This document shows positions 16,949 through 53,087 of a stretch of DNA of 64,000 bases, one piece after another. The DNA lies in NCBI GenBank assembly GCA_022778745.1, contig JALFSR010000060.1:1-64000 (forward strand). Reading direction: 5' to 3'. Every line of letters begins with the position of its first letter. Within the stretch, counting starts at the first letter, position 1. The stretch comes from Clostridiales bacterium (GTDB lineage: Bacteria > Bacillota > Clostridia > Lachnospirales > Lachnospiraceae). Under the pieces are notes generated by a model. That model was not told where the DNA came from. It was given only the letters and a program-made list of their open reading frames with translations, and searched no databases. Made by a program: the position numbers and the translations under genes.

Positions 16949-17270
16949 TAGTTAGTCCTCCTGTTTTTTAAAGATTAATCATCTCTTTTTTTCTCTATTT
17001 GTATCTTGCATTCGGATGTACGGCTTATTTTTCATGCCATCCTTCTTGTTATTCTTTTGTCTTGTTTTTTAATACTACTATTTCTAGTTATATCAAAACT
17101 TGAAAGTAGCTACATGTAGTATACCATAAAAATGAGCAATTGCAATACCAAGCTTTCTTTTCTACTCAATATTTTATAAATTTTCCTCAAATCCAGTTGT
17201 ATTTTTTTGTACATTACATATTTTATTACTATTGTACACAATAACTTTTTTGATATACATTTATATTTCA

Positions 17271-25806: not shown

Positions 25807-25843
25807 AGACTGCTGCATAGTGACTAACAACTTGCAGCAGTCT
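25807..25843. terminator. perfect hairpin between convergent units (possible bidirectional terminator)
   Basis: AGACTGCTGCA-15 nt-TGCAGCAGTCT. Confidence 0.45.
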
Positions 25844-25849
25844 CCTGCG

Positions 25850-26050
25850 TACTTTCAACACTTGTTTTGACACAAGACTTTTAATTGCCTCTCAAATTGT
25901 ACTTCTTCCTACGCCAAACATCTCTGCCAGTTCAAATTTATTTGGCAGTTTTGTTCCAACCTTAATATTATTATCTGCAATATCACTCAGAATATTATCG
26001 ACAACTCTTTCTGTCAGCGGCTTATTTTTAAAATTCTCAAACTGATACAT
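25850..26050 (-). pseudogene. GntR-family regulator fragment (N-terminal wHTH only, in-frame stop)
   Basis: Minus strand from ATG 26050: MYQFENFKNKPLTERVVDNILSDIADNNIKVGTKLPNKFELAEMFGVGRSTI*EAIKSLVSKQVLKVR...; TGA at 25894-25892 where GntR proteins usually have Arg; no effector domain follows. Confidence 0.85.
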
Positions 26051-47031: not shown

Positions 47032-47218
47032 GCCTTTAACACACAAGTTTGACCTCATTATTTTTAAAGAGATCAGATTTTCCGTGTGATATTGAAACTT
47101 CCGTACAGCTCTTAATGATAACAGGTAACGCACGGAAGAAAAATGTTATTTCTACTTATTGCAAATACAGGAAGGGAGGACGGTCTTTTTTCTGTTTGAC
47201 ATAAGACCGCAATATATT

Positions 47219-48127
47219 ATGAATTCACTTGTTGAAGAAATCAAACAATTAAAAAAAGAAAAGAACGCCGTTATTATGGCACATTACTACGTTCCAGATG
47301 AAGTACAGGCTGTTGCAGATTATATCGGAGATTCTTTTTATTTAAGTAAAGTTGCTACTAAAGTAAAGGAAGACACCATCGTATTTTGCGGCGTTTCTTT
47401 TATGGGAGAAAGTGCTAAAATTTTAAATCCATCTAAGACAGTATTAATGCCAGATGTGACAGCTGACTGTCCAATGGCTCATATGGCAGACATTGAGACA
47501 ATTAAACGCATAAAAGCAGAGTATGAAGATGTTGCTGTCGTTTGCTATATTAATTCTACTGCGGAATTAAAGTCTTATTCTGATGTATGTGTGACATCTT
47601 CCAATGCAGTTACTATCGTAAAGGCTCTGCCAAATAAACATATTTTCTTTATTCCAGATCAAAATTTAGCTCATTATGTCGCACAGCAAGTTCCAGAAAA
47701 ACATTTTATTTTTAATGATGGTTATTGTCCAATTCATAAAGATATTACTTGTAAAGATGTCATTGCTGCAAAAGCACGCCATCCACAAGCACAGTTTCTT
47801 GTTCATCCAGAATGTCCTCCAGACGTATTAAATTATGCTGATATGATCGGAAGTACATCGGAAATTATTGATTACGCTTCAAAAAGCACACAAAAAGAAT
47901 TTTTAATTGGTACAGAAGCTGGCGTTTTATATGAATTAAAACAGAAAAATCCTGACAAAACATTTTATACTGTAACTGATCATCAGTGCTGTATTGATAT
48001 GAAAAAAGTAACATTAGAAAAAATTTGCCATGTGTTACGTACTTATGAAGGAAGTGTACAAGTAAGCGATACTCTTCGTCATACTGCAAATATTCCTTTA
48101 AACCGTATGCTTGATTTAGCAAAATAA
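47219..48127 (+). CDS. nadA: quinolinate synthase
   Basis: MNSLVEEIKQLKKEKNAVIMAHYYVPDEVQAVADYIGDSF; GVSFMGESAKILNPSKTVLMPD; VHPECPPDV. The track's TTG start at 47159 seems less likely. Confidence 0.95.
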   Translation: MNSLVEEIKQLKKEKNAVIMAHYYVPDEVQAVADYIGDSFYLSKVATKVKEDTIVFCGVSFMGESAKILNPSKTVLMPDVTADCPMAHMADIETIKRIKAEYEDVAVVCYINSTAELKSYSDVCVTSSNAVTIVKALPNKHIFFIPDQNLAHYVAQQVPEKHFIFNDGYCPIHKDITCKDVIAAKARHPQAQFLVHPECPPDVLNYADMIGSTSEIIDYASKSTQKEFLIGTEAGVLYELKQKNPDKTFYTVTDHQCCIDMKKVTLEKICHVLRTYEGSVQVSDTLRHTANIPLNRMLDLAK

Positions 48128-48291
48128 CCAGTGTTTCTACCTTATTATAATAAGGAAAATATAAATCTAATATAAGAGTTTTGTTTTTAAAAAGAACAAA
48201 TTAATTATGATATATTTCGCTTTAATCAAAGAAATAACAATTAATACAAAACTTTGCTTCAAAAAGACAAGTACCGTATTAGGAGGGGACT

Positions 48292-49611
48292 ATGGATAAC
48301 CGAAAAACAGATGTTGTTATTGTAGGAAGTGGCGTTGCTGGTTTATACTGTGCATTGAACCTTCCAAGAGATAAAAAGATTTTAATAATCACAAAAGATG
48401 ATCTGGAAAGCAGCGATTCTTTTCTTGCGCAAGGCGGAATCTGCGTTTTAAGAGATGATTCTGACTACGACAGTTTTATGGAAGATACATTACGGGCTGG
48501 TCACTATGAAAATCGTGTTGAATCGGTTGTTATTATGATTCGTTCTTCCAGAGAAACAATTAACGATTTAATCCACTATGGTGTCGATTTTACGAAGGAA
48601 AATGGAAAAGAAGCTTATACAAGAGAAGGTGCACACTCCAAACCTCGAATTTTATTTCATGAAGACATTACTGGAAAAGAAATTACAAGTAAATTACTGG
48701 AACAGGTTAAAAAATTAGACAACGTCACAATTATGGAATATTGTACAATGGTCGATATTATTTGTCACAACAACCGCTGCGCTGGTATTTTAGTTCACGA
48801 TAAAGATGGAAATTTCTTTACCATCGAAGCTTATTATACAATGCTTGCCTGTGGTGGTGTCGGCGGTCTTTATAAACACTCAACAAACTTCCGTCATTTA
48901 ACTGGAGATGCACTTGCAATCTGCCTCAAACATAATATTGAATTAGAACATATTGATTATGTACAAATTCATCCGACAACATTGTATTCTACAAAATCTG
49001 GCCGTCGTTTCCTCATCTCTGAGTCCGTCCGCGGAGAAGGTGCACTTCTTTATAATAAAGACGGAGAGCGTTTTGCCGATGAATTATTACCGCGAGACGC
49101 ATTGACAAAAGAAATACGCAAGCAAATGGAAAAAGATCAAATGCCTTATGTTCATTTATCTATGCTTCCACTCGGAAAAGAACTGATTTTAAACCATTTT
49201 CCAAATATTTATCAACACTGTCTGGAAGAAGGCTATGATGTCACAAAAGAACCAATTCCGGTTGTGCCTGCCCAACACTATTTTATGGGCGGTGTTCACG
49301 TTGATTCACATAGCAAAACAACGATGGATATGCTCTATGCTGCTGGTGAAACAAGCTGCAATGGCGTACACGGTGCAAACCGACTTGCAAGCAATTCTTT
49401 ACTGGAAAGTCTTGTATTTGCCAAACGTGCCGCACTTCAAATGACGGAACAATTTCCATCTTCTATGGAAAACCTTCCAGAACATACTCATTTTGAGCAA
49501 TTAACTGCTGCACTCAACTTGGATGACTACCGTGACACTGCAGCACTTCAACAACAATACAAAACAATGATTTTAGATGAAATGGAAAAGGAGAGATACG
49601 CTCATGAATAA
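48292..49611 (+). CDS. nadB: L-aspartate oxidase
   Basis: DVVIVGSGVAGLYCALNL; FLAQGGICV; PAQHYFMGGVHVDSHSKTTMDMLYAAGETSCNGVHGANRLASNSLLE. Confidence 0.96.
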   Translation: MDNRKTDVVIVGSGVAGLYCALNLPRDKKILIITKDDLESSDSFLAQGGICVLRDDSDYDSFMEDTLRAGHYENRVESVVIMIRSSRETINDLIHYGVDFTKENGKEAYTREGAHSKPRILFHEDITGKEITSKLLEQVKKLDNVTIMEYCTMVDIICHNNRCAGILVHDKDGNFFTIEAYYTMLACGGVGGLYKHSTNFRHLTGDALAICLKHNIELEHIDYVQIHPTTLYSTKSGRRFLISESVRGEGALLYNKDGERFADELLPRDALTKEIRKQMEKDQMPYVHLSMLPLGKELILNHFPNIYQHCLEEGYDVTKEPIPVVPAQHYFMGGVHVDSHSKTTMDMLYAAGETSCNGVHGANRLASNSLLESLVFAKRAALQMTEQFPSSMENLPEHTHFEQLTAALNLDDYRDTAALQQQYKTMILDEMEKERYAHE

Positions 49612-50458
49612 TATTACAATGAAACTCAATGCCGATCATTTAATTTTACAAGCATTAGAAGAAGACATTACAAGTGAAGATATTACAACAAATGCCGTTA
49701 TGCGCACACACCAGCTCGGAACTGTTCAGCTCATCTGTAAACAAGACGGTGTAATTGCTGGATTAGACGTATTTGCAAGAACATTTCAGCTTCTTGATCC
49801 AGAAATAACTGTGACATGTTACGTAAAAGACGGAGATCGTGTGACAAACAAGCAGCTCCTTGCCGATGTTACCGGAGATATCCGTGTTCTTCTATCTGGC
49901 GAACGTACTGCATTAAACTATCTGCAGCGCATGAGCGGTATCGCTACTTACACTCGTTCTATTGCCGATTTGTTAAAGGGCAGCAAAACAAAATTGCTTG
50001 ATACAAGAAAAACAACACCAAACATGCGTGTATTTGAAAAATATGCCGTAAAAGTTGGCGGCGGTTACAATCATCGATACAATTTATCCGACGGTATTTT
50101 ATTAAAAGATAACCATATCGGTGCTGCTGGCGGTGTAAAGGAAGCGGTAACTATGGCAAAAGAATACGCACCATTTGTAAGAAAAATTGAAGTCGAAGTT
50201 GAAAATATGGAGATGGTAAAAGAAGCCGTCGAAGCCGGTGCAGATATTATTATGCTCGACAATATGACTCCAGAAATGATGAAGGAAGCAGTAACTTATA
50301 TCGACGGCAGAGCTGAAACCGAATGTTCTGGCAATGTGACAAGAGAAAATGTTGCCCGTCTTGTCGATATTGGTGTTGACTATATTTCCAGCGGTGCATT
50401 GACACACTCCGCTCCTATTTTAGACGTTTCTTTAAAAAATCTTCACGCAATTGAATAA
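49604..50458 (+). CDS. nadC: nicotinate-nucleotide diphosphorylase (carboxylating)
   Basis: EEDITSEDITTNAVM; GERTALNYLQRMSGIATYT; DTRKTTPNMRVFEKYAVKVGGGYNHRYNLSDGILLKDNH; start moved to 49604 (overlaps nadB stop). Confidence 0.96.
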   Translation: MNNITMKLNADHLILQALEEDITSEDITTNAVMRTHQLGTVQLICKQDGVIAGLDVFARTFQLLDPEITVTCYVKDGDRVTNKQLLADVTGDIRVLLSGERTALNYLQRMSGIATYTRSIADLLKGSKTKLLDTRKTTPNMRVFEKYAVKVGGGYNHRYNLSDGILLKDNHIGAAGGVKEAVTMAKEYAPFVRKIEVEVENMEMVKEAVEAGADIIMLDNMTPEMMKEAVTYIDGRAETECSGNVTRENVARLVDIGVDYISSGALTHSAPILDVSLKNLHAIE

Positions 50459-50503
50459 ACATACAAAACTTATGCATAAATTTGAGCGAAAGGAGATCCT
50501 ATC

Positions 50504-51010
50504 ATGAACGGGACAGAACGCAGACAAGAAATTTTAAAACGAATTCAGCAGAGTTCGTCCCCCGTTTCCGGCACCGAACTGGCAAAAACATTTCATGTCA
50601 GCCGTCAAGTAATCGTGCAAGATATCGCATTGTTGCGTGCAAACGACGACAACATCCTGTCCACAAACAAAGGATATTTTTACAACTGCACTGCCCGCGC
50701 TTCCCGCACCTTTCATGTCTATCATAAAGATAACGATATTTTAGATGAATTAACTACTATCATCGATTTCGGCGGAAATATCGTCGATGTATTCGTTTCT
50801 CATGAGGTTTATGGACAGCTCCGAGCAGAATTAAATATTCATACAAGAAAAAAAGCAATTGATTTTGCAAACAATATAAAAAATGGAAATTCCATCCCAT
50901 TAAACAATATTACTTCTGGATACCACTATCATACCGTCACCGCAGATTCTGAACAGACACTTGATCAGATCGAAGAAGAATTGAGAAAGAAACAATATCT
51001 TGTTCCATAA
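50504..51010 (+). CDS. niaR: NiaR-type NAD biosynthesis repressor (HTH plus 3H domain)
   Basis: RRQEILKRIQQSSSPVSGTELAKTFHVSRQVIVQDIALLRAND; conserved His in VSHEVYG, NIHTRK, SGYHYHTV. Confidence 0.92.
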   Translation: MNGTERRQEILKRIQQSSSPVSGTELAKTFHVSRQVIVQDIALLRANDDNILSTNKGYFYNCTARASRTFHVYHKDNDILDELTTIIDFGGNIVDVFVSHEVYGQLRAELNIHTRKKAIDFANNIKNGNSIPLNNITSGYHYHTVTADSEQTLDQIEEELRKKQYLVP

Positions 51011-51136: not shown

Positions 51137-51727
51137 TTAAACATTAGAGTATACACATTTTTTATATTGTTTAACCATTTCGCAGAAATATTCATGTATT
51201 TTCGTACAATTAGTCACTTCTGGATGAAAAGAAATTCCGAGCTGATTGTCATGGCGTACTGCAACGATATTTCCATCAACTTTTGCCAATATGTCTTCGT
51301 CAGCAGCCTGTTCTATATACGGTGCACGAATGAAATTCATTGGAATTTTACCAATCCCCTTCACTTCTGATTCTATATAAAAACTTCCAAGCTGTCTTCC
51401 ATACGCATTTCTTTTTACAGTGACTGGCAATGTTCCAAAATATGTATGAGTATCATTTGATAACTGTCTTGCAAGCAAAATCAACCCTGCACATGTCCCA
51501 AATACAGGCATTCCCTCTTCTATTTTTTTCTTTATTGGTTTAAATAGCTCTAATTCTTTCAACAATTTTCCCTGTACAGTACTTTCTCCTCCTGGAAGAA
51601 TCAAACCATCAAAGGGCTGTTCCAGATCCTTTCTCTGGCGAATTTCAAAACATTGTACACCGATTTGTTTCAGCATCTTTTCATGTTCGATAAAAGCTCC
51701 CTGTACTGCTAAAACTGCAATCGTCAT
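51137..51727 (-). CDS. pdxT: pyridoxal 5'-phosphate synthase glutaminase subunit
   Basis: IAVLAVQGAFIEHEKML; LILPGGESTVQGKLL; VFGTCAGLILLA; GISFHPEVT. Confidence 0.95.
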   Translation of the reverse strand: MTIAVLAVQGAFIEHEKMLKQIGVQCFEIRQRKDLEQPFDGLILPGGESTVQGKLLKELELFKPIKKKIEEGMPVFGTCAGLILLARQLSNDTHTYFGTLPVTVKRNAYGRQLGSFYIESEVKGIGKIPMNFIRAPYIEQAADEDILAKVDGNIVAVRHDNQLGISFHPEVTNCTKIHEYFCEMVKQYKKCVYSNV

Positions 51728-51752: not shown

Positions 51753-52631
51753 TTATTTTCCTCTTTCTGCCATTAAAAGTGCAATCTCATCTTCATTAAT
51801 TCCGACCATTGCTTCTCCTAAATCTTCTGAAAGCTCTGCAATCAATTTCGCATCCGTATAATTCGTCACAGCCTTCACAATCGCAGCTGCTCTCTTCGCT
51901 GGATTTCCAGATTTAAAAATACCAGAGCCAACAAATACGCCTTCTGCACCAAGCTGCATCATCAATGCTGCATCTGCTGGAGTTGCCACACCACCCGCTG
52001 CAAAATTAACAACTGGCAGTCGTCCATTTTTATGGACATATTCTACTAACGCATATGGCACTTCCATTTCCTTTGCCGCCTGGAATAACTCATCTTCTCT
52101 CATAGAAGTCAATCTTGCAATCTCACGATTCATCATACGCATATGACGTACTGCCTGTACAATATCTCCTGTACCAGGTTCTCCCTTTGTACGAATCATC
52201 GATGCACCTTCCTGAATGCGACGCAGTGCCTCTCCCAAATCCTTTGCACCACATACAAACGGAACACGGAATTTTGTCTTATCAATATGATATACATCAT
52301 CCGCTGGAGACAATACCTCACTCTCATCAATATAATCGATTTCGATCGCTTCCAACACTTGTGCCTCCACAAAATGTCCAATTCGACACTTCGCCATAAC
52401 TGGAATACTTACTGCTTCCTGAATTCCCTTAATCATCTTTGGATCACTCATACGAGATACTCCGCCAGCTGCACGAATATCCGCAGGAATACGCTCCAAC
52501 GCCATAACCGCACAAGCACCCGCCTCCTCAGCAATTTTTGCCTGCTCTGGTGTCGTAACATCCATAATCACTCCACCTTTCAGCATCTGTGCCAACTGTT
52601 TATTTAATTCATATCTATTCTCTTCCATCAA
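51753..52631 (-). CDS. pdxS: pyridoxal 5'-phosphate synthase lyase subunit
   Basis: [85 protein letters not shown]. Confidence 0.97.
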
Positions 52632-52655: not shown

Positions 52656-52692
52656 GATGTTTGGGTCAAAAGATAGTTTGCCCCCATGATAC
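52656..52692 (-). repeat. dispersed repeat, family 2 end copy in the pdxS leader
   Basis: gatgtttgggtcaaaagatagtttgcccccatgatac vs reverse complement of 57001..57037 gatgttggggtcaaaagatagtttgatcccatgatac. Confidence 0.65.
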
Positions 52693-52793: not shown

Positions 52794-52822
52794 ATTATAA
52801 TAGAGTAATGGTATTTTATCAA
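52794..52822 (-). promoter_or_regulatory. pdxST promoter
   Basis: Minus strand TTGATA-17 nt-TATAAT. Confidence 0.8.
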
Positions 52823-52936
52823 ATACCAATTTTAACTTTTTAATCCATACCACATTTTTATATCATACCAATTTATATATTTTTAATCATACCAGTTATC
52901 TTTTTCATACCAAATTTTATATTTTAATCCATACCA
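52809..52936 (-). promoter_or_regulatory. iteron array of six ATACCA (TGGTAT) boxes upstream of pdxST
   Basis: ATACCA at 52824, 52847, 52865, 52890, 52908 and 52931 on the plus strand; same-register period 41/43 bp; TGGTATTT-GATA-AAATACCA-type dyad over the -35. Confidence 0.75.
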
Positions 52937-53042
52937 ATTATACTTACTATATTTATCTAAAACCTCATTATACAAATATTTTCTCCACTTACTTACAATA
53001 AAACAGTTAGTTTGCCGTTTATCAGACGATACTTAACACAAA

Positions 53043-53087
53043 AAAGTCGTTTGCCCTGCATTTTACGCACTCAAAGCAAACGACTTT
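53043..53087 (-). terminator. terminator of the aminotransferase/dehydrogenase/YjiH unit
   Basis: AAAGTCGTTTGC / GCAAACGACTTT stem; minus strand continues TTTTTTG. Confidence 0.75.

Follow-up and report, generated by a model that had tools for sequence, protein, structure and literature searches.

pdxST locus and its upstream repeat array

The window (the whole stretch of DNA analysed, 64,000 nucleotides from a Clostridiales bacterium of the Lachnospiraceae; contig JALFSR010000060.1) carries the two PLP synthase genes, pdxS and pdxT, on the minus strand. An intergenic array of seven short boxes lies upstream of pdxS, between the promoter and a terminator-like stem that sets the upstream gene apart from the array. 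The features, with strand, are as follows:

51137..51727, minus: pdxT, glutaminase subunit of PLP synthase, 196 aa (TIGR03800, 211 bits)
51753..52631, minus: pdxS, lyase subunit of PLP synthase, 292 aa (NCBIfam NF003215, 510 bits; TIGR00343, 503 bits)
52794..52799, minus: -10 hexamer TATAAT, 9 bp past box C (usually 7-9 bp in relatives)
52809..52814, plus: inverted box C of the core operator (ATACCA on the minus strand), in a 20-bp dyad with B1
52817..52822, minus: -35 hexamer TTGATA of the pdxST promoter, within the B1-C dyad, read from sequence
52823..52828, minus: box B1 (TGGTAT) of the core operator, 24 bp from A1, at the upstream edge of the -35
52847..52852, minus: box A1 (TGGTAT) of the core operator, kept family-wide
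52865..52870, minus: box B2 (TGGTAT) of distal unit 2, 24 bp from A2
52889..52894, minus: box A2 (TGGTAT) of distal unit 2
52907..52912, minus: box B3 (TGGTAT) of distal unit 3, 24 bp from A3
52931..52936, minus: box A3 (TGGTAT) of distal unit 3, at about -144 to -149 from the predicted +1
53043..53087, minus: terminator-like end of the upstream gene, a perfect 12-bp stem followed by a T run, read from sequence

Read on the plus strand, six ATACCA boxes start at 52823, 52847, 52865, 52889, 52907 and 52931, with the inverted seventh box at 52809-52814. The intervals are 24/18/24/18/24, every second box lying exactly 42 bp on, and the 42-bp period was also recovered by Tandem Repeats Finder and by a repeat finder. 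All six boxes had been listed in an initial annotation of this DNA, with three coordinates off by one (correct values 52823, 52889 and 52907); the regular array that it described stands, while its spacings of 23/18/25/18/23 and of 41-43 bp between alternate boxes give way to the values above. The same annotation correctly placed a dyad over the -35 of a TTGATA-17-TATAAT promoter: on the minus strand, TTGATA (52822-52817) is followed after 17 bp by TATAAT (52799-52794), and the dyad TGGTATTTGATAAAATACCA spans 52809-52828. Relative to the predicted +1 (~52787), box C falls at about -22 to -27, B1 at -36 to -41 and A1 at -60 to -65; the two distal units together cover -78 to -149.

The window contains seven close ATACCA pairs, five of them in the array, where dinucleotide shuffles predict 0.06. 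First-order Markov simulation of the intergenic region (20,000 copies) gave at most five boxes on one strand (observed, six). The shuffles and the simulation reject a chance origin of the array. When the core operator pattern was scanned through the same genome with up to three mismatches, its only exact match was at the pdxST array; matches elsewhere carry 2-3 mismatches and are no commoner than those of a reversed-pattern control, giving no sign of further regulon members in this genome. An Rfam search of the pdxST leader matched no riboswitch or other known RNA.

Three other features of the window were recorded. A 15-bp repeat (AAAAGATAGTTTGCC, AACAGTTAGTTTGCC) flanks the array at 52668-52682 and 53002-53016, with a third, weaker copy overlapping the terminator stem. 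Genes resembling nadA, nadB and nadC of NAD synthesis, together with a NiaR-like regulator frame (47159-51010; all named by eye from translations), adjoin pdxST in convergent orientation. At 17121-17150, between two genes that look peptidase-like by eye, there is an intergenic pair of ATACCA boxes 24 bp apart; box C is not evident there, and the pair may be due to chance.

A single MocR protein, PdxR, encoded away from pdxST

The initial annotation proposed an unlinked regulator, and a search of the genome agrees: GntR and aminotransferase domains are joined in exactly one protein, encoded at C55:8458-9798, unlinked to pdxST. This 467-aa protein is classified as PdxR by NCBIfam NF052282 (555 bits, cut-off 320, one copy), and its score against the GabR model (434 bits) lies below the cut-off of 600. 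Among solved structures, the protein is closest to PDB sequence group 7pq9 (five entries; full-length match, E=1e-117), labelled in the database only as ‘PLP-dependent aminotransferase family protein’, which we take to be the PdxR of B. clausii.

Autoregulation of pdxR through an array of this kind was considered and discarded, the region upstream of pdxR containing, by eye, no array and only a single TGGTAT. At 25841-26017 of the window, a GntR domain match falls in a frame interrupted by a TGA and is possibly a broken regulator gene.

The core operator is conserved across the family

For comparison we took 88 pdxS genes from the same taxonomic family, the genus included, and analysed the DNA upstream of each. 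A motif model was seeded on 16 regions with the pattern TGG-24-TGG-20-CCA and applied at a threshold of 12 bits (shuffled maximum, 9.9). The three-box core exceeds 12 bits in 76 of the 88 regions, and a rescan of the weak ones over 1.1 kb brought the total to 78 with two convincing cases, L218 and L236; the L191 and L222 regions, from genomes with PdxR encoded elsewhere, have no operator even over 1.1 kb. The layout is TGG, then 24 (or 23) bp to a second TGG, then a 20-bp dyad to CCA; of the 76 core operators, 57 have distances of 24/20 and 16 of 23/20. A TATAAT-like hexamer follows 7-9 bp past the CCA in 72 of these 76 regions. Two congeners (L078, L079) have a TGGTAT-24-TGGTATTTGATAAAATACCA core in the layout of the window, without any of the four distal boxes. 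The three promoter-proximal boxes (A1, B1, C) are the conserved, ancestral part of the array; the four distal boxes were seen in no other genome searched.

The operator is found in 75 of 77 genomes that bear PdxR and is absent from 8 of 11 that lack it (Fisher p = 1e-7, a value that ignores kinship). This co-occurrence bears on whether a different, non-MocR regulator might act on the boxes, which we regard as highly improbable. The genome does contain eight GntR-domain matches besides PdxR, and a weak operator is kept in three genomes with no match to the PdxR model; against this, operator presence follows PdxR, a MocR-type helix-turn-helix frame lies divergently upstream of pdxS in 38 of the 88 regions, and in this genome only one protein has the GntR-aminotransferase fusion. 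The three genomes concerned (L190, L208, L229) have weaker operators with TGT, which suggests that a divergent regulator shares the operator layout there.

Substitution of TGT for TGG in at least one box was seen in four pdxS operators altogether (those of L190, L208, L229 and L233). Among three PdxR-less genomes without the operator, a TTGACA hexamer lies near pdxS in two (L053 and L072). Covariation between the recognition helix and the operator looked strong (p = 8e-7, 2e-9, ignoring kinship) but was set aside as proof, as no more than 1-2 of the pairs are independent once placed on well-supported parts of the tree.

The distal units were found in one genome only and are conserved within the array

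Counting TGG(T/C)AT boxes over 150 bp upstream of the core gives four for the window and at most one for the other regions, among the best 25 of the 76 core regions ranked by upstream unit score; in the same 25, no clear second unit was found 42 bp further up. A relaxed four-box pattern, allowing up to three mismatches, was searched in 397 genomes of the family and 392 of the class, with exact matches only in the source genome, G127 and G327. The G127 match is, by its look, a GC-rich protein-like repeat, and that in G327 a 6-bp repeat; both were rejected. A scan of 85,462 species genomes (from which the source genome may have been left out) for two tandem A-24-B units returned 69 contig stretches. 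No PdxS gene accompanied any of them in the DNA retrieved, and nearly all are simple 6-8 bp repeats, the remaining few having no assigned regulatory context. The description of the array as unusually extended is therefore borne out, with no second example beside pdxS in the 88 regions, the ~790 pattern-searched genomes or the 85,462 species genomes. The further expectation, that the boxes recur upstream of pdxS orthologs, holds for the core in 76-78 of 88 regions and fails for the four distal boxes.

These comparisons also weigh on how the boxes pair. In a GabR-like arrangement, dimers would bridge boxes 42 bp apart (A1-A2, B1-B2, etc.), and indeed direct ATACCA repeats are the GabR motif (PMC4494728) and 42 bp is close to four helical turns. 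We nonetheless consider this arrangement quite improbable, given that relatives keep the 24-bp (or 23-bp) pair and the inverted box, with no clear second unit 42 bp up among the 25 regions ranked best, and that the regulator falls short of the GabR cut-off (434 against 600) but clears that of PdxR by a wide margin.

Because the extra units occur in one genome only, the case for their function rests on conservation within the array. Each pair of 42-bp units has 12 of 12 box positions identical, and all 36 box letters are the same. The spacers, compared from unit to unit, match at 17-19 of 30 positions (57-63%, where composition alone predicts 43%) and contain no indel. Identical boxes beside diverged spacers, in unbroken register, argue for selection on boxes and spacing rather than a fresh duplication. 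This pattern suggests an old duplication in which selection has probably maintained the boxes and their register.

A neutral origin is the main competing account of the distal boxes: they would be AT-rich tandem copies of the core A-B unit, without function and drifting, and only the three-box core would work. Such an account fits spacers of 86% A+T, the 42-bp period found by Tandem Repeats Finder and the missing extension in the congeners. Neutral drift, however, should strike boxes and spacers alike, and here the boxes agree at all 36 letters and keep five exact intervals, while the spacers have diverged to ~60%. We judge this explanation unlikely.

Predicted operation of the array and comparison with known systems

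In our assessment the array is very probably the standard PdxR operator of a pdxST promoter with two extra direct-repeat units, a prediction of binding made from the sequence comparisons above. The threefold extension is a lineage-specific elaboration of a known type of switch, found in no other genome searched. A1 and B1, 24 bp apart, with the inverted C overlapping the -35 and spacer, would form the ancestral operator. Two A-24-B units added upstream in 42-bp (four-turn) steps could allow three PdxR dimers to share one face of the helix. PdxR from its unlinked gene would most likely bind the direct repeats and activate pdxST, as do characterised PdxRs, and the extra units may raise local occupancy or cooperativity, with stronger activation, or activation at a lower PdxR level, as the outcome. 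By analogy with these proteins we infer PdxR binding, activation, cooperativity, dose effects and any effect of PLP at this promoter; graded control of vitamin B6 synthesis by the array, as proposed in the initial annotation, is a hypothesis.

Characterised PdxRs of other species activate pdxST in their apo form, which prefers direct repeats; PLP serves as an anti-activator (PMC5320631). The PdxR operators of Firmicutes and Actinobacteria (B. clausii, L. monocytogenes, C. glutamicum; Suvorova and Rodionov 2016, PMC5320631) resemble the present one, with a MocR protein on a pdxST promoter and TGG boxes, and two direct boxes plus one inverted box form the commonest MocR motif layout (PMC5320631). 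Three marks of a PdxR operator are found here: a PdxR-type MocR in the genome, TGG boxes (two direct, one inverted) at the pdxST promoter, and the core upstream of orthologous pdxS genes. The array departs from the PdxR systems of that survey (PMC5320631) in its unlinked regulator gene and in its size, with seven boxes in a 42-bp register as opposed to at most four boxes per motif.

The initial annotation called the array a GabR/MocR-like operator, of which the MocR part is upheld by the single PdxR (555 bits); the four-turn GabR pairing gives way to a conserved pair at 24 bp plus an inverted box. The B. subtilis GabR operator shares direct ATACCA repeats, the same box letters and the same MocR protein class. 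It differs in that ATACCA boxes are paired at about four turns before gab genes, whereas here the target is pdxST, spacing (a conserved 24-bp pair) and dyad are those of the pdxS-linked core, and the protein is PdxR by NCBIfam, with a GabR score below the cut-off. The ATACCA match to GabR (PMC4494728) is a resemblance of box letters.

With the same promoter and regulator type, one unit in congeners against three here, and an exact helical register, the locus offers a natural case for how MocR dimers add up.

PdxR lacks the PLP-binding lysine

The Schiff-base lysine that binds PLP, a trait of the PdxR family, is replaced by arginine in the protein of this genome (YLGTFSRSIAP versus YLGAFSKSLIP in PDB match 7pq9). 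The pyridine-binding Asp, the stacking Tyr and an Arg319-like residue are all present. Arginine occupies the position in the following PdxR genes:

L020:1462-2865 (G000 C55): pdxR of this genome
G151 and G153: pdxR of congeners

Within the family the lysine is absent from 21 of 80 PdxR proteins (one further protein, G040, was set aside as misaligned), replaced by Arg and in a few by Gln, Asn or Met, and the position shows 12 state changes on a quick tree. In a survey of MocR proteins, by comparison, the lysine was conserved in all clusters (PMC6677901). With His at this position, EnuR cannot form the covalent bond to PLP and represses constitutively (PMC8739950). That variant, K302H, is like the present protein a MocR without the PLP lysine; it is, however, a laboratory mutant, whereas the Lys to Arg change here is natural and lies in a presumed activator.

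By its whole-length score the protein is still a PdxR, with ligand binding in doubt, and since Arg replaces the PLP lysine, PLP sensing or ligand control as in other PdxRs is uncertain. Congeners with the core operator only carry the substitution too, and the array is thus not needed to explain it. One possibility, which we hold to be doubtful, is that the regulator here and in many relatives is a PdxR that lacks the PLP-binding lysine and cannot form a PLP aldimine of the usual kind; PdxR level and operator copy number (three stacked units here), or non-covalent sensing, would in that case govern vitamin B6 synthesis in place of the classical PLP switch. The missing lysine makes this protein a case for whether a vitamin B6 regulator works without the covalent PLP link of its family.

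Three further congeners of the same genus (G150, G152 and G155) have a different, weaker match to the PdxR model (339-352 bits), again with Arg at the lysine position; of the three, G150 alone carries pdxS, and its operator is a variant one.
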